A stretch of DNA of 10,029 bases from Jimgerdemannia flammicorona (Eukaryota; Mucoromycota; Endogonomycetes; Endogonales; Endogonaceae), in NCBI GenBank assembly GCA_003990745.1, contig RBNI01007720.1, positions 1 to 10,029 of the forward strand, read 5' to 3'. Below are positions 1 to 10,029 of this stretch, piece after piece (the stretch's first letter is position 1; every line of letters begins with the position of its first letter). The notes beneath the pieces are model-generated. The model was not told the DNA's origin. It was given only the letters and a program-made list of their open reading frames with translations, and searched no databases. The translations under genes were made by a program, and so were the position numbers.

Positions 1-156
1 GACACCAAGATCATCAAATTTGGATGATTATTCATCAAGTTATTGATGTAAACATTTAATTGTCTAATTTGGAAATCAAAACAATACCGATTCGAATCCA
101 ATTCGAATCTGATTCGAATCCATCCGAATCCCATCCGGATTGACTCATTCGGAGCA
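1..156. other. Left flank, non-coding
   Basis: This is AT-rich sequence with no reading frame I can support. It is not similar to the part of the right LTR (7082-8726) that should lie here if the 5' LTR were complete, so it is either host or other repeat DNA joined to a truncated LTR. It holds a short GATTCGAATCC-type repeat (89-140) and one TGACTCA heptamer (141-147). Confidence 0.6.
89..140. repeat. Short tandem repeat, ATTCGAATCC units
   Basis: Three units start at 89, 100 and 111 (11-base spacing), followed by more degenerate copies at about 121 and 132. Each unit contains the palindromic core TTCGAA or its variant TCCGAA. The core resembles a tRNA T-loop (B box), but there is no A box or clover-leaf, so I treat it only as a simple repeat. 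Confidence 0.6.
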
Positions 157-557
157 CTACTCCTAGTATATGTAGCAATATCATGAATAGCGAATAAACC
201 TATTTGATAACCCACAAACCACTCTTAAGTAAATCCACTCTCCATTAGGTCCCACTCCTAACCCTGTCATGAAATTTCCTAATTGGGTATTGTCTGCAGT
301 GATACGCCAATTCAACTAAGCTGGTCTTAGTTTCTCAAACTTCCTGAAATACAGAAAATCCTGAACATCCAGAACTAGTCCAAAGAAAGGACTTTGGTTG
401 AGACGTCAACCCGATCTTGAAATCAATAAGTGTAGAGGATGTACTCCATACAAAATTGATCTTGACCATAAGAAAACGGTCTTCTAGAATAATCAGAACT
501 TCCAGAAAACCCTTCCAGAACTACGTAATGGTTACCCTAAAAAGCAACCCTCTTATA
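157..557 (+). repeat. 5' LTR fragment (R-U5 part), U3 missing
   Basis: This stretch matches 8727-9123 along its whole length. The only indel is a 4-base TGTA insertion at 171-174 in the left copy. I count 24 substitutions by eye, all transitions. It ends CTCTTATA, where the right copy ends CTCTTACA, so the terminal CA has become TA here. Upstream of 157 the similarity stops abruptly and about 1.6 kb of LTR, including both proposed promoters, is absent. This copy therefore cannot start its own genomic transcript. Confidence 0.92.
193..198 (+). promoter_or_regulatory. AATAAA in left LTR (poly(A)-signal-like)
   Basis: A canonical AATAAA hexamer conserved in both LTR copies (here and at 8759-8764). 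In the 3' LTR it would direct 3'-end formation. In this 5' copy it is only the matching R-region sequence. Confidence 0.4.
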
Positions 558-3110: not shown

Positions 3111-3497
3111 ATGATTGATGATTGCTTCTCTTGTGTCAACGAACTGGCTCAAAGAAGAACCAACAGAAGAAAAGCTCCTACAACTGAAATCACCACCATT
3201 GGATCAGACAAACTGCTAACACTTAAAGCTTTTGTCAATCGAGTACCTGTCAAGATCATGATAGACAGTGGTGCCTCAGGCAACTTCATCAATGAAGAAA
3301 CAGCCAACAGACTTAAGGTCTTCACCACTCCAGTACAACAAACTCAAGCAGTTGCCACAGCTGATAGAATCTCACATATCATTAGCAAGGAAGTCCGCAA
3401 TCTACCCTTCCGAATTGGTAACTATCGAGTACATGTTACCCTCCAAATCATATCACTCCCTGACAACGAAATCATCCTTGGAACTCTATGGTTAAAA
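3111..3497 (+). pseudogene. Aspartic protease domain (PR)
   Basis: A retroviral-type aspartyl protease that would cleave the Gag and Pol polyproteins. The active site is MIDSGASGNFI, with D-S-G-A codons at 3264-3275. About 65 residues later comes the hydrophobic, Gly-containing NEIILGTLWL strand that in this family closes the fold. Both hallmarks are intact. The domain is closed by TAA at 3498, probably from CAA, and an upstream TGA (3108) separates it from the dUTPase region. Only one Asp is present per chain, as expected for a homodimeric retroelement protease. Confidence 0.92.
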
Positions 3498-3815
3498 TAA
3501 GAGAACCCCATGATCAATTGGGCAAACCATTCTCTGACCATCAAGAAAGGATGCCACAACTTCAAACTACAAGGTAAAAAGGACACACTCAACTCTAGTG
3601 ACTCTGGACCAAAGATTACCCATATCAACAAACTACAACTCAAGAAATTAGCCAAGAAATGTCCTCTCTTTGCTATCTCCATCCGTTCATCCAAAGGAGA
3701 ACTCGAGAACTCTGAAGAAGACTTTTTCAAAGTTGACAGCCACGTCAGACCACTACTCCAGAAATTCCGAGATATATTCCCAAAGAAACTCCCAAAAGGC
3801 CTACCTCCCAAATGA

Positions 3816-4733
3816 GCAGTGGACCATACTATCAAGACTATTCCTGATGCCAAGCCAGCCTTCAAGTCAATCTACCATATATCTCCAAGAGAAATCAATG
3901 CACTCAAGAAAGAAATTGACGAACTCCTAGAACAAGGATTCATCAGATCCAGTGTATCACCCTATGGTACACCAGTCCTCTTTGTTGTCAAGAAAGGAGG
4001 AGACCTGCAAATGTGCATTGATTACCGTGACCTCAATGAACAGACCATCAAGAACTGTTACCCACTACCCAGAATCGATGAAATATTCGATAGGCTTACC
4101 AACCCACAATTCATGAGCTCTTTTGACCTGTGAAATGGTTACTGGCAAATTTCCATGAAAGAAGAAGACATCTACAAGACAGCCTTCCAAACTCGCTATA
4201 GACATTTCGAATTCCTGGTTATGCCCTTTGGCTTAACTAATGCTCCTGCAACCTTCCAGACCCTGATGAATACCATTCTGCACCCATACCTCAACAAATT
4301 CGTTGTTATCTACATTGATGACATCCTAGTCTTCAGCAAAACTCTGGAGGAACATCTTGAACACCTTGAACTAGTACTACTGAAACTCAGAGAAAACCGA
4401 CTCTTTGCAAAACTCAGCAAATGTGAATTCCTCCTAAAAGAAATTCAATTCCTTGGACACATTGTCACACCAAATAGAATCAAAGTAGATCCCAGCAAAA
4501 TCTCCGCAATCAAGGATTGGCCCAGACCTAAGAAGCTGAAAGACCTCTAGTCATTCCTGGGATTAGCAAACTATTACAGGCAATTTGTTACCAACTTTGC
4601 TAAAATTGCCACTGCCCTCACTCAAATGACCAAGCATAACAAGAAAGGAGAACAGCCCTGGACCATGAAACAAGAGAAAGACTTCAACAATCTTGCAAAT
4701 TGGGGACTCAAATAAGATACAGCCTTTCAAGCA
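3816..4733 (+). pseudogene. Reverse transcriptase domain (RT)
   Basis: RNA-directed DNA polymerase that copies the element RNA. Visible blocks in order: [13 protein letters not shown] and MCIDYRDLN (fingers), [14 protein letters not shown] with a catalytic Asp codon at 4125, VMPFGLTNAPATFQ, then the YIDD box at 4311-4322 carrying the other two catalytic Asp, and FLGHIVTPNRIKVDP followed by FLGLANYYRQF in the thumb/connection. Stops: TGA 4131 falls at the Arg of the usual DLRxGYxQ block, TAG 4548 at the Gln before SFLGL, and TAA 4713 before the RNase H connection. The catalytic triad itself is untouched. The YIDD and FGLTNAPATFQ blocks are diagnostic of Ty3/gypsy. Confidence 0.95.
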
Positions 4734-5160
4734 TTGAAAGATGCTTTGATAATCACTCCAGTACTTCAAGTGGCAAATCCTGTCCTACCATATGAAGTTA
4801 CTACTGATGCCTCTAACCTAGCTCTTAGAGCAGTACTCATGCAAGAAGGACACCCTGTGGCCTATCACTCCCACAAGTTCAATGATGCTGAAATCAACTA
4901 TGTAACTCATGAGAAGGAAATGTTAGCCATCATAGACACTCTGATCAAATGGCGACCATACCTAGAAGGAGCACACTTCACCATATTGACTGACCACAAG
5001 TCATTAGTCAACATCAAGACCCAGGCTACCCTTTCTCAAAAGCAAGCCAGATGGATGAAAGTCCTCACCAACTTTAACTATGAAATCCAGTACCACCCTG
5101 GCAAGGAAAACATTGTTGCCGATGCAATCTCCAGACCACCTATTGAAGAAGTTATCCAAA
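4734..5160 (+). pseudogene. RNase H domain (RH)
   Basis: Degrades the RNA strand of the RNA:DNA hybrid during cDNA synthesis. Catalytic acids are in place: Asp in TTDAS (codon 4806), Glu in HEKEMLAII (4911-4919), Asp in LTDHKSL (codon 4992). The late NIVADAISR block (about 5109-5135) supplies a fourth Asp, as in gypsy RNase H. One oddity is AGA at 4827 (Arg) where this family usually has Gly before AVL, as expected from GGA to AGA. No stop falls inside the domain; it belongs to the longest intact piece of pol (4716-5576). Confidence 0.93.
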
Positions 5161-5369
5161 CTCTCACCCTGGTTACAAACTCCATCATGGAACAAATTAT
5201 CACAGCATGTGCTAATGATAAGGAAGCTCAAGCACTCCAAGAAATCCTGAACAGTGATGATATTGACAAACATACCTGGTACAATCATTATCAACTTAAG
5301 GACAATGCTATCTACTACAAGGACAGACTGTATGTTCCAAACAACCGAGACCTCCAAAGGACTATCTTA

Positions 5370-6350
5370 TTCGAATATCATGATGCCCCTACAGCTGGAC
5401 ACTTAGGATTTGATAAATACTATGAAGTTATCTTCCGAAACTTCTATTGGCCCCACATGGCAGATCAGCTCAAAACCTACATTACTTCCTGTGATGCCTG
5501 CCAATGGAACAAGTCCTCAACACTAGCAAAACCTGGTCTACTCCACCCTATCCCAGTACTATCCGCTAATTGGGAATAAGTCTCTATAGACTTCATTGTA
5601 CAGCTACCCCGAACCAAGAACAGGAAAGATGCAATTGTTGTTTTTGTGGACTATCTCAGCAAACAAGCTCACTTTGTGCCAGCCACCACCACTGCAACAG
5701 CACCAGACATAGCCACACTCTTGTTTGACAATATCTTCCACTATCATGGTCTCCCTAAGATCATTGTTAGTGACCGAGATCCAAAATTCACCAGCCATTT
5801 TTGGAAAGCCCTCCATGCATACCTCGGAATGAAACTTGCACTATCTACAGCCTTTCACCTTAAAACTAATGGCCAAACTGAAAGAATGAACCAAACTCTG
5901 GAACAAATGCTAAGAAACTATATTTCCTACAGATAAGATGATTGGCATGAACACCTCACCACAGTCGAGTTTGCCTATAACAACAGCAAGTAAGCCTCTC
6001 TTGGAATGACCCCATTCTTTGCCAATACTAGACAAAATCCAAACACTCCTCTGACACTCATCCGAACCACTGAAGAACCCTCTACAGTTGAAGCTGTTGA
6101 AGAATTCTTACTCCGAATGCATAATCTAAGCCAGATCGCAATTGACAATTTATCGCGAGCTCAAAAACAACAGTCACAGTATGTTAACCAACATCGCTGA
6201 GAAGAAACCTTCGATATTGGAGAAAAAGTTCTACTAGACATCCGAGGATACCAAGTTGACAACCTCAAGCACAGACCATCTACAAAGCTGAACAGCAAGT
6301 TCATTGGACCATTTGAAGTTATTTCACAAGTCTCTCTGACCTCCTACAAA
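5370..6350 (+). pseudogene. Integrase domain (IN) with HHCC, DD35E and GPF module
   Basis: Inserts the cDNA into the chromosome. The zinc-binding N-terminus has His codons at 5379 and 5400 and Cys at 5490 and 5499 (CX2C). Catalytic core: Asp in SIDFIVQLP (5589), Asp in VSDRDPKF (5772), Glu in NGQTERMN (5880); exactly 35 residues separate the last two, i.e. DD35E. The GPF module is at 6300-6314 (FIGPFEV), as in Ty3/gypsy integrases. Stops at 5577, 5934, 5991 and 6198 (three TAA, one TGA) flank the catalytic core, which is itself unbroken from 5580 to 5933. All metal-binding residues survive, but a full protein cannot be made. Confidence 0.94.
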
Positions 6351-6485
6351 TTGGCGCTACTGAATACTATTAAAATTCACCCAGTCTGCAATGTCCAATG
6401 TCTCAAGCGATACAATGACAATGATGATGAGCTATTCCCGAACTGTACTACAAAACCACCTGCACTCGTCATTATTAATGACCAG

Positions 6486-6653
6486 GAAGAATACGAAGTT
6501 GAACAAATCCTCAACAGACATGGCCACAAGAACCATCCTGAGTATCTCATTAAATGGAAAGGTTATCTGATCCATGATGCAATATGGAAACCCAAGACCA
6601 ATCTCCAGAATGCTACCAATTTCGTTCAGAAATATGAATCCTTGAACAACTAA
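6486..6653 (+). pseudogene. C-terminal chromodomain of integrase
   Basis: A chromatin-reading module at the end of pol. The sequence EEYEVEQILNRHG is followed by PEYLIKWKGY and DAIWKPKTNLQNA, matching the chromodomain pattern: a first aromatic (Tyr codon 6492), Trp in IKWKGY (6555) and Trp in AIWKP (6585), then the C-terminal helix ending ...VQKYESLNN before TAA 6651. In chromoviruses this domain is thought to direct insertion to particular histone marks; the target here is unknown. No stop interrupts the domain. Confidence 0.93.
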
Positions 6654-7067: not shown

Positions 7068-7080
7068 AAGAAGGGGAGAG
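7068..7080 (+). promoter_or_regulatory. Polypurine tract (plus-strand primer)
   Basis: A 13-base pure-purine run, AAGAAGGGGAGAG, stands one base before TGTAAG. This is the expected position for the RNase H-resistant primer of plus-strand DNA, immediately 5' of the 3' LTR. It is the only strong purine run between the end of pol and the duplicated LTR portion, and it sets the LTR start at 7082. Confidence 0.75.
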
Positions 7081-7100
7081 TTGTAAGTGCACAACCTCCA

Positions 7101-7164
7101 AGCCACAGAAATCACACGTCACCCTCTGAACAAGCCACCGAAATCACATGCGATCTCTGAACAA
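7101..7164 (+). repeat. Imperfect ~32-bp tandem duplication in U3
   Basis: Units 7101-7132 and 7133-7164 share AGCCAC, GAAATCACA (7108-7116 and 7140-7148) and CTCTGAACAA (7124-7133 and 7155-7164), with a one-base offset between blocks. It sits just inside the LTR, upstream of the second tandem repeat and the first TATA-like box, as enhancer repeats often do. Confidence 0.65.
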
Positions 7165-7190
7165 ATCTGAAAATCACCTGCAAGATCACG

Positions 7191-7252
7191 AAGCTGAGTC
7201 AAACAGAAGTCACAGTGCATAAAGCTGAGTCAATACTAAGTCACGGAACATA
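7191..7252 (+). promoter_or_regulatory. 31-bp tandem repeat, each unit with TGAGTCA
   Basis: Units 7191-7221 and 7222-7252 are both 31 bases, identical at about 24 positions, and begin AAGCTGAGTCAA. Each carries a perfect TGAGTCA heptamer (7195-7201, 7226-7232), the core site of AP-1/Gcn4-type bZIP factors, and a later AAGTCAC. The repeat ends about 42 bases before the TATATA at 7295. An upstream activating element for the LTR-embedded frame is a reasonable inference; the factor is unknown. Confidence 0.55.
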
Positions 7253-7294
7253 AGGTTTACATAAACAGAATCTTACTAATCAAGAACAGATGCA

Positions 7295-7300
7295 TATATA
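7295..7300 (+). promoter_or_regulatory. TATA-like box of the LTR-embedded ORF
   Basis: TATATA at 7295-7300 lies 73 bases before ATG 7368. The leader between them is rich in C and A and nearly free of G and T from about 7328 on, a style common in expressed fungal leaders. This gives the downstream frame a promoter of its own, separate from the genomic TATA box at 8634. Confidence 0.5.
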
Positions 7301-7367
7301 CTGAGCCCCGAGATGTGTCGAATAAGAACCAAAACAAACAACAACCACAACTTCCAAACACACAAAC

Positions 7368-8444
7368 ATGACCACTGAGATCTACAACTGCATCTGCACT
7401 GACATTTGGAATGCCATTGTCAACTGAGCCACACTCCCTCTGCCCCTCATGAATATCTATAGCCGAGTACCCCTCTACTTTGTGGAAGCCCGATGGAATG
7501 CTCTGAACATGCTTAACGAGGCCCACCAGATTGGACAAATCTCAAGCTACTACCAGATCGGCCACCTCCTGGAAGATATGGTTGAACATCACCATGACAC
7601 AGATATTACCCAGATGTCTCAACACCAGAAGCTCATCGCCTGCAAACACCAAGAACTCTTCTATGAGTACAGCACCTTTATTCCCCGTCTCTAAGTTACT
7701 ACCAGCGAAATGGTTACTACCTTGTCCTATGGCCAAATCAATGACATGATACAAGAACTCAACCACAAGTATCTCGAGTATATTGAAACCACAGACAGAA
7801 CCTTCCCACACCCCGATGACCACATTCTGCGAATGCCCCAAGTTGGATATGCTATGAAGGATGTCTACGATATAATCTGATTTGATGAAGATGAAGCAGA
7901 AGACAATGATCTCTCTGATGCCGACATGACCTCAAGCCAAGGATCTCTACCAACTCTGATCACACTGCCAACCTTACTAATGAACTTACAATAGTTCATA
8001 ACTATATATGAGACTTATTGGGACAATGACCACTGGTACAAATACCAACCTGCATTCACCCCCGATTACTTCAACTACAATGAAGACCTTCAGATAACCC
8101 TCGAAGTCGAACCAACCACTCCACCACCTGAGTATGAGCAATATAAACCACAGCCACCAGCTTACTACAACCCTGTGACTCATAGTGCTGTAACCTATAG
8201 AAGGTATGCAGACAGTGAATCCAATGAAAGCAAAAACAATGCACCACTTCTTCACCCACCAATACCTTATCCAGCTTATGAGACAGACGATGCTATCCTG
8301 TGGGACAGAGATGAAGTTCCAATGTATTATTACCTCAGTGAACAAGGAGAAGTAATCTGCAAACCACTTTTCCTAGATGACTACTTCATCAGAGATGAAG
8401 CAATTGATGGTGATGTCATCGAAGACTATCCAAACAGTACCTAA
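7368..8444 (+). pseudogene. Unrecognised 358-codon ORF inside the 3' LTR (U3), broken by 4 stops
   Basis: One frame (frame 3) from ATG 7368, in the context AAACATGACC, to TAA 8442-8444, 358 codons. Premature stops: codon 20 (TGA 7425), 109 (TAA 7692), 171 (TGA 7878), 209 (TAG 7992); all can be single transitions, as in gag and pol. I do not recognise the protein. Visible traits: a His-rich patch (EHHHDTD) near codon 95; an acidic stretch just after codon 171 (FDEDEAEDNDLSDAD); a Pro/Tyr-rich region with two PPxY motifs, PPEY at 253-256 and PPAY at 263-266; an acidic C-terminus. No signal peptide, membrane segment or zinc finger is seen. Low stop density over 1 kb of AT-rich sequence, plausible codons throughout and an upstream promoter support a real gene. 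It would be duplicated in both LTRs of an intact element. Confidence 0.72.
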
Positions 8445-8633
8445 AACTATAAATAGGTTAGCAGTCATAGTATAGTTAGATTAGCCTTATACGACATGAC
8501 TGTGAACTGACTCAGCAGTCAGATGATCTCTTGATATGTCAGATCACACTTATATTACGTGACTGCATTCCGACTCAGCAAAGCACTTAGTGCTACATCC
8601 ATATTTAGCATAGTTCAGATATCCCCTCACTAG
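8445..8633 (+). promoter_or_regulatory. Upstream promoter region with repeated GACTCAGCA
   Basis: Between the LTR frame and the second TATA box lie TGACTCAGCA (8508-8517) and CGACTCAGCA (8571-8580), sharing a 9-base block 63 bases apart. The first holds a perfect TGACTCA bZIP core. Around them are repeated CAGTCA/TGACTG pieces on both strands and TTACGTGAC near 8556, similar to a CREB/ATF half-site. The cluster is consistent with activator sites for genomic transcription; binding is inferred only. Confidence 0.45.
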
Positions 8634-8640
8634 TATAAAT
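8634..8640 (+). promoter_or_regulatory. TATA box for genomic RNA
   Basis: TATAAAT at 8634-8640 in the 3' LTR is followed by a C-rich stretch and AC-rich sequence. The start of R should lie roughly 30-100 bases downstream, before AATAAA at 8759. In an intact element the same box in the 5' LTR would drive gag-pol. The 5' copy here lacks it. Confidence 0.6.
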
Positions 8641-8758
8641 ACCCCCTTCTCCAGACCTCAGAATCTCAGACCTGAACAATCCGAACACAACTCCTGAGCA
8701 CTTCCCCATAATACTCCTTCACATAACTACTCCTAGTATAGCAATATCATAAATAGCG

Positions 8759-8764
8759 AATAAA
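8759..8764 (+). promoter_or_regulatory. Poly(A) signal AATAAA in 3' LTR
   Basis: AATAAA about 120 bases after the TATA box is in position to end both the genomic RNA and any transcript from the LTR-embedded frame. It is conserved in the left copy (193-198). Confidence 0.5.
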
Positions 8765-9234
8765 CCTATTTGATAACCCACAAACTACTCTTAAGTAAAT
8801 CCACTCTCCATTAGGTCCCACTCCTAACCCCATCACGAAATTTCCTAATTGGGTATTGTCTGCAGCGATACGCCAATTCAACTAAGCTAGTCTTAGTTTC
8901 TCGAACTTCCTGAAATATGGAAAATCCTGAACATCCAGAACTAGTCCAAAGAAAGGACTTTGGTTGAGATGTCAACCTGATCTTGAAATCAATAAGCATA
9001 GAGGACATACTCCATATGAAATTGATCTTGACCATAAGAAAATGGTCTTCCAGAATAACTAGAACTTCCAGAAAACCCTTCCAGAACTATGTAATGGTTA
9101 CCCTAAAAAGCAACCCTCTTACACAAAGGGGACTGGGCCAGAATCTGTAGCCTAGCAGTTGACAAGGAGTTGGAATTGGTGAGGAGTGGAACTGGCATGA
9201 TGTTTGAACCTGGAGTACTGCAGTGAGAAAGTGG

Positions 9235-9930: not shown

Positions 9931-10029
9931 TTTTAAATTTTTAATTTTTTTTTTTGACTATATATTTATTATAAATTTTCAATAAAATTTTTTTTTTAAA
10001 AAATTAATTTTTCAATATTTTTAATTTTT
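9931..10029. other. AT-rich tail, no gene
   Basis: Almost only A and T, with runs of T and AATTTTT. It could be the 3' tail of the LINE-like remnant, an AT-rich isochore or a simple repeat. The window ends here and I see no gene. Confidence 0.6.

Follow-up and report, generated by a model that had tools for sequence, protein, structure and literature searches.

The window, that is, the whole stretch of 10,029 nucleotides analysed here, is a single contig of Jimgerdemannia flammicorona (C7720) and carries an LTR retrotransposon on its forward strand. Inside the 3' LTR of this element lies an open reading frame (ORF) that is interrupted by stops in the window and fully open in a few other copies. 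The genome searched for such copies comprises 134.8 Mb in 7754 contigs. Its RPB2 finds its best PDB match in 3h0g, the fission yeast entry, which ranks ahead of animal and budding-yeast ones, as suits a fungal host. The features of the window are as follows, with counts out of 40 referring to LTR copies aligned from the genome.

156 to 557, + strand: remaining 3' part (R/U5) of the 5' LTR; 156-555 shares 93% identity with the 3' LTR, and the CTTATA end is followed by a PBS-like sequence
558 to 575, + strand: PBS-like sequence (acttggtagcagtgg...), similar in genomic 5' LTRs (17 of 40 copies)
2462 to 2512, + strand: gag zinc knuckle (CCHC; PF00098)
2612 to 2938, + strand: dUTPase domain in the gag frame, interrupted by stops (PF00692; E 1.5e-22 for the first piece, 0.22 and below cut-off for the second)
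3111 to 6653, + strand: pol with protease, RT, RNase H, integrase and chromodomain, containing several stops (five pieces scanned separately; rve below cut-off)
7069 to 7080, + strand: polypurine tract 5' of the 3' LTR, also in 14 of 40 copies
7082 to 9123, + strand: 3' LTR with TGTAAG...CTTACA ends; like ends occur in genomic copies, of which 9 of 40 are solo with a 5-bp target-site duplication
7195 to 7232, + strand: two TGAGTCA motifs within a 31-nt direct repeat (32 and 36 of 40 copies)
7295 to 7300, + strand: TATATA upstream of the ORF, candidate ORF promoter element (39 of 40)
7368 to 8444, + strand: LTR-encoded ORF, decayed copy of 358 codons with four in-frame stops (365 codons in the naturally open L019 and L021)
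8508 to 8514, + strand: TGACTCA motif (38 of 40)
8634 to 8640, + strand: TATAAAT downstream of the ORF, candidate genomic-RNA promoter element (40 of 40)
8759 to 8764, + strand: AATAAA in R, candidate shared poly(A) signal (39 of 40)

The domain order is that of a Ty3/gypsy chromovirus, with protease, RT, RNase H and integrase in succession and a chromodomain ending pol. The Pfam matches in pol are gag-asp_proteas, RVT_1, RT_RNaseH, Integrase_H2C2 and Chromo (E 1.9e-12, above cut-off), with the integrase core domain below cut-off. The dUTPase domain is placed between zinc knuckle and protease in the gag frame, and pol is in another frame. The LTRs likewise conform to this group, showing TG..CA ends, a PBS, a polypurine tract and a 5-bp target duplication, with some copies starting or ending with TA; several aligned LTRs start TATAAG, not TGTAAG.

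The 3' LTR is 2.04 kb long, and its limits are supported by its ends, by the polypurine tract directly 5' of it and by complete solo LTRs at other loci, which are flanked by 5-bp target duplications. The 5' LTR of the window is left only as 156-557, and another dispersed repeat accounts for bases 1 to about 159. This repeat (window 1-160) occurs in at least 40 places, the window included, at 90-98% identity and often close to contig ends. It abuts the shortened 5' LTR at about 156, either by nested insertion or by an assembly join. A different U3 in the 5' LTR of the window was considered and rejected, as 1-160 is another repeat and none of eight loci with the repeat had LTR sequence in a blastn comparison with the L021 LTR. 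At the other end of the window, 3' of a G-rich flank, a very A+T-rich tail with T runs (9940-10029) reaches the contig end. A search of a plasmid collection gave no match.

An open reading frame within U3

The ORF runs from ATG to TAA and comprises 358 codons plus the stop codon. It begins 286 nt inside the LTR and lies within it over its whole length, 5' of the TATA box that precedes R. Four stops interrupt it, as against 16 and 32 in the other two forward frames of the same region. The sequence-only reading had proposed one hidden frame of 358 codons here, inside the U3 of the 3' LTR; both statements are borne out and the observation is confirmed. The length holds for the window copy, which lacks 21 nt (7 codons) relative to the L021 frame, but the full frame is one of 365 codons. 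Four stops also yield five open pieces rather than the four that had been counted. The description of all four stops as transition-type is accurate for three, at which every difference from the non-stop copies in a set of 59 is a transition; for the third stop this is true against just 6 of 55 non-stop copies of that set.

Searching the genome with the LTR at the DNA level returned 46 matches from the 40 candidates scored out of 3844. The 40 longest were aligned and six shorter ones, located in L041 and L042 and beside the main L035 match, were left out. In each of the 40 aligned copies the ATG is kept and a stop closes the frame at a constant position, and two of them (L019 and L021; 365 aa) are fully open. 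The other 38 contain stops, and 14 of the 40 also have frame-shifting indels. The in-frame stops amount to 156, or 3.9 per copy, whereas the other forward frames, checked in three copies, have 13-32. Contrary to the refuting case named in the sequence-only reading, other copies thus share a conserved frame, with start and end retained in every copy and with naturally open ones among them. In a protein search with the L021 frame, the best 112 of 3875 candidates were scored and all 112 match over nearly the full length; 23 of these rows are free of internal stops, in a sample biased to L021-like copies. The candidate counts suggest a copy number in the thousands. L005 and L041 (C1457:16244-22078) are formed by several consecutive LTR pieces on one contig, an apparent tandem or nested array.

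The 40 aligned copies comprise 17 5' LTRs, followed by the PBS-like sequence, 14 3' LTRs, preceded by the polypurine tract, and 9 solo LTRs with identical 5-bp flanks, leaving none unclassed. The ORF is therefore present in 5', 3' and solo LTRs. Since the window's own 5' LTR is reduced to 156-557, the two-copy layout was examined in other elements. On C1018, a 5' and a 3' LTR both contain the ORF, with a pol match between them and the target duplication CCAAA. On C2241, both LTRs likewise contain it and the target duplication is TGAAC; here the element call rests on PBS, polypurine tract, spacing and target duplication. Hence, the claim that an intact element carries two copies holds in both LTR pairs examined. 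The two pairs differ by 6.9% and 5.3% between 5' and 3' LTR, respectively, and the first member of each pair is the more distant from all other aligned copies.

The frame is wholly inside U3, an assignment that rests on the place of the TATA box. By the usual logic of LTR elements, genomic RNA would carry U3 once, at its 3' end. Reverse transcription would then copy U3 into both LTRs, so that each new insertion would start with two identical copies of the ORF, and recombination to a solo LTR would leave one. The further statement that one copy stands upstream of gag is correct for the 5' LTRs in DNA but not for genomic RNA, which by this logic carries the ORF at its 3' end and not before gag.

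Constraint and decay of the frame

Selection was assessed in 59 copies, namely the 40 aligned ones and 19 picked by their likeness to L021, and sites with the minor allele in at least 10 of the 59 form the shared class. Of the shared variable sites, 43 fall on first, 20 on second and 82 on third codon positions, and their ratio of nonsynonymous to synonymous changes (N/S) is 0.72 when read in frame, compared with 2.52 and 3.92 in the two other phases. Singletons are distributed 44, 37 and 39 over the three positions (N/S 2.19 in frame, 1.62 and 2.63 off frame), and two classes of middle frequency show in-frame N/S of 1.39 and 1.34. At non-CpG transitions the shared class contains 11 of 232 nonsynonymous, 43 of 207 synonymous and none of 24 stop changes (ratio 0.23, p 3.3e-7). 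The corresponding singletons, 62 of 232 nonsynonymous and 36 of 207 synonymous (ratio 1.54, p 0.022), show no nonsynonymous deficit. With all contexts pooled, the ratio is 0.51 in the shared class and 0.93 and 0.97 in the two middle classes. CpG sites give a contrary picture: their ratio is 0.64 in the top class but 2.56 for changes found in 4-9 copies (N 40/111 versus S 11/78, p 0.0008), and four of nine possible CpG stops belong to the shared class. We read the middle-class excess and the shared stops as repeated changes at mutable CpG sites.

The substitution pattern thus shows the constraint by codon position that a genuine frame should leave, both in the non-CpG ratio of the shared class and in its dependence on phase. 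Pairwise dN/dS, which had been proposed as a check, is also below 1: the median is 0.29 in 22 of 28 pairs of eight open copies (six pairs gave no numerical solution), a value that the restriction to open copies may have lowered through dN. Moreover, variation along the LTR follows the frame. In seven 150-nt windows from 7428 to the end of the ORF, second positions vary little and third positions mostly vary strongly, the first position leading in the last window. No three-base rhythm is seen in two windows before, the second of which covers the first 60 nt of the ORF, or in four after.

The members of an LTR pair should diverge only after insertion. The summed differences in the two 5'/3' pairs are 81 nonsynonymous, 47 synonymous and 14 stop changes. 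Because nonsynonymous changes are deficient among shared sites, with no such deficit in singletons or within LTR pairs, we conclude that constraint acted on the frame in those lineages that spread, and that an inserted copy is free to decay.

Frequent stops were also considered as a mark of lineages that spread with a broken frame, and this was rejected for seven of the eight common stops, which are not clustered among near neighbours. The exception is the stop at codon 227 (9 of 59 copies), which is clustered (p 0.008) and may reflect a lineage that spread with a broken frame. The four commonest stops, none of them clustered, stand at codons that include a CpG in the majority of open copies. 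At the other four the usual codon lacks a CpG, and of these codon 227 clusters and three do not. Changes common to at least two of the 59 ORF copies are almost all transitions (392 of 399 sites), with CpG sites worst affected, suggesting cytosine methylation in the host.

The four stops in the window copy, together with the stops in 38 of 40 aligned copies, could be taken to mean that the frame is a chance opening or a relic in non-coding LTR sequence. Against this stand the frame-specific constraint seen in several tests, such as the phase-specific deficit of shared nonsynonymous changes, and a 66% identical relative elsewhere (P0001, see below), and we regard such an origin as extremely improbable. 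The ORF is almost certainly a real, selectively maintained protein gene, which this high-copy fungal Ty3/gypsy chromovirus carries entirely inside the U3 of its LTR.

The predicted product and its relatives

The predicted product has 365 aa and a pI of 4.26. Its C-terminal 160 residues include 36 D/E, 5 K/R and 26 Y/W/F. Among 5.8 billion proteins searched with phmmer, the sole relative at E<=1e-3 is P0001, a protein of 247 aa on a 998-base contig with 65-66% identity over 68% of the frame, and a nine-row profile found the same one at E<=1. A pol search of this collection named an organism in only 2 of 14 matches, both of them a plant. Fungal proteins are thus possibly thin in the collection, and the scarcity of relatives is weak evidence. 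The product matched no Pfam family at E<=1 and no PDB chain at E<=10. PPxY motifs found in some copies are absent from P0001. Structure models of P0001 with window pieces (mean pLDDT 34) and of the N-terminal window piece (46) are too poor to use, and the latter suggests at low confidence only that the N-terminal part may be helical.

This putative helical part would suit a structural protein, gag-like or envelope-like, rather than a regulatory one. However, no membrane-spanning stretch is present (best 19-residue hydropathy mean 0.76), the element already has its own gag with a zinc knuckle, and similarity of the product to that gag was not found in weak single-sequence profile comparisons with two gag pieces, all of which makes a structural role unlikely.

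The same lack of similarity to the two gag pieces, and of any retroelement domain match in the product, would also be expected of a gene captured from the host or from another element by one LTR, hitchhiking with it and kept for the host rather than the element. The genomic distribution argues against this. All 26 loci examined from the protein searches (24 new copies, as L055 repeats L021 and L082 repeats L058) are flanked by LTR sequence on either side up to the limits of their contigs. Among the loci with checked flanks, every copy was inside an LTR, although the searches scored the best 112, 150 and 150 of 3875, 3317 and 2908 candidates, most without a flank check, and a divergent host progenitor could be missed. 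Capture for the benefit of the host is accordingly an improbable account, and a gene that serves the element is preferred.

Expression, precedents and significance

Several motifs flanking the ORF are conserved and suggest how such a gene might be expressed. The TATATA upstream of the ORF is located 73 nt before the ATG and is distinct from the TATA box before R. Of five LTR parts compared, the one that retains it is the most divergent; these first 286 nt of U3 also vary most in length (gap fraction 0.15 versus <0.01 in the four other parts). The start context CAAACATG is present in 36 of 40 copies. From these motifs, we consider it rather probable that any LTR could give rise to a short mRNA of its own, running from this TATA box to the AATAAA that both transcripts would share in R. 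The short ORF mRNA would then come from the first TATA box, and genomic RNA from the second. Because the second box is 3' of the ORF, genomic RNA starting there should include the ORF solely in the U3 at its 3' end. Standard LTR logic makes U3 part of this 3' end, and the ORF might therefore have no promoter of its own and depend for its expression on genomic RNA, or a spliced form of it, in which it would be the last cistron. This alternative deserves serious weight even if we do not favour it, the main point against it being the near-universal TATATA (39 of 40 copies) in so divergent a part of the LTR.

Motifs of the form TGASTCA occur 3.58 times per copy, compared with 0.25 in single-base shuffles of 15 copies, and one common site lies inside the ORF. 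TGAGTCA and TGACTCA are Gcn4/AP-1-like, and their conservation in U3 may link the LTR to a Gcn4/AP-1-type regulator.

Most likely, the product is an accessory protein that would be made from LTRs and act in trans for the element. Foamy virus Tas is a transcriptional activator of its own LTR. By its composition, the fungal product might have a Tas-like role. An activator or anti-silencing role would agree with the acidic tail rich in aromatic residues and with the traces of CpG decay. As a tentative and rather doubtful suggestion, drawn from composition and position, the product might thus be a trans factor that activates the genomic promoter of the LTR or shields it from methylation-based silencing.

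To our knowledge, only a few retroviruses have genes within their LTRs. In mouse mammary tumour virus (MMTV), sag is an open frame within the U3 of the LTR, present in two copies per provirus, and encodes a membrane superantigen of this mammalian retrovirus. The fungal frame resembles it in lying inside U3 and hence in being present twice per element. However, Sag is membrane-anchored, whereas the fungal product lacks a membrane stretch and a Pfam match. The likeness is one of position. Lentiviral nef is a 3' accessory gene that reaches into U3 from a start upstream of the LTR; the fungal ORF also occupies U3 but is wholly inside the LTR. The comparison with sag and nef made in the sequence-only reading therefore stands for the position of the gene and for nothing beyond it.

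Among transposable elements, extra genes are found at other places. The element itself is a chromovirus with a dUTPase, a kind already reported in fungi, including Tmt1 of Tuber melanosporum (PMC2864245). These share the Ty3/gypsy affiliation, the chromodomain and the dUTPase with the element described here; the accessible part of that paper mentions no LTR gene, and a figure key in it names additional ORFs. Plant LTR retrotransposons have additional ORFs, also of unknown function, in the internal region according to the available text of PMC7264820, whereas the fungal frame starts 286 nt inside the LTR and not between gag-pol and the LTR. Rice Retrosat2 likewise combines an extra gene with long LTRs, but its ORF0 is upstream of the gag-pol ORF and, in the part of the source at hand, not placed inside the LTR (PMC3485330). 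In bdelloid rotifers, LTR retrotransposons have captured ORF3 genes after gag and pol, and several lineages have a dUTPase (PMC5408684); extra gene and dUTPase are shared with the fungal element, while the sections seen mention no LTR gene, and a chromodomain was not found there. Another fungal LTR element with an extra gene is the Boty-like element of Botrytis cinerea, whose brtn is, going by a reference title in PMC7264820, antisense, whereas the present ORF is sense and within the LTR. BARE retrotransposons have two promoters (reference title in PMC12786077), and both they and the present LTR would thus have two differently used promoters, but the BARE title implies no LTR gene. In an orchid Ty3/gypsy lineage, an additional ORF encodes an RNA demethylase that raises the element's own expression, as the accessible portion of PMC12786077 describes, which provides a precedent for accessory genes countering host control. 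The wording 'gene within the LTR' in PMC1560396 was rejected as a precedent because, in the passage seen, it concerns a host gene within an LTR retrotransposon. No precedent for an LTR-contained gene of a fungal retrotransposon was found among the open-access papers covered, most subscription papers being outside this scope; to that extent, the description of the layout as unusual and possibly undescribed in a fungal Ty3/gypsy element stands.

Taken together, the ORF is very probably best explained as an LTR-encoded accessory protein gene, and the interpretation given in the sequence-only reading is supported. At somewhat less than even chances, the LTR may even be a self-contained gene cassette, in which a gene of 365 codons has its own promoter, distinct from the one that drives the genomic RNA, and uses a shared poly(A) signal. 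The LTRs, including the solo LTRs, would then be gene copies dispersed in their hundreds or perhaps thousands, of which the open ones would supply a trans factor to the whole family. We know of no non-viral retrotransposon with such a layout. With a conserved LTR gene in a fungal retrotransposon, this layout would be shown to have arisen outside retroviruses too. The naturally open copies make its function directly testable. Moreover, solo LTRs, which are usually seen as regulatory debris, could stay protein-coding, and annotation that treats LTRs as non-coding would miss such genes.
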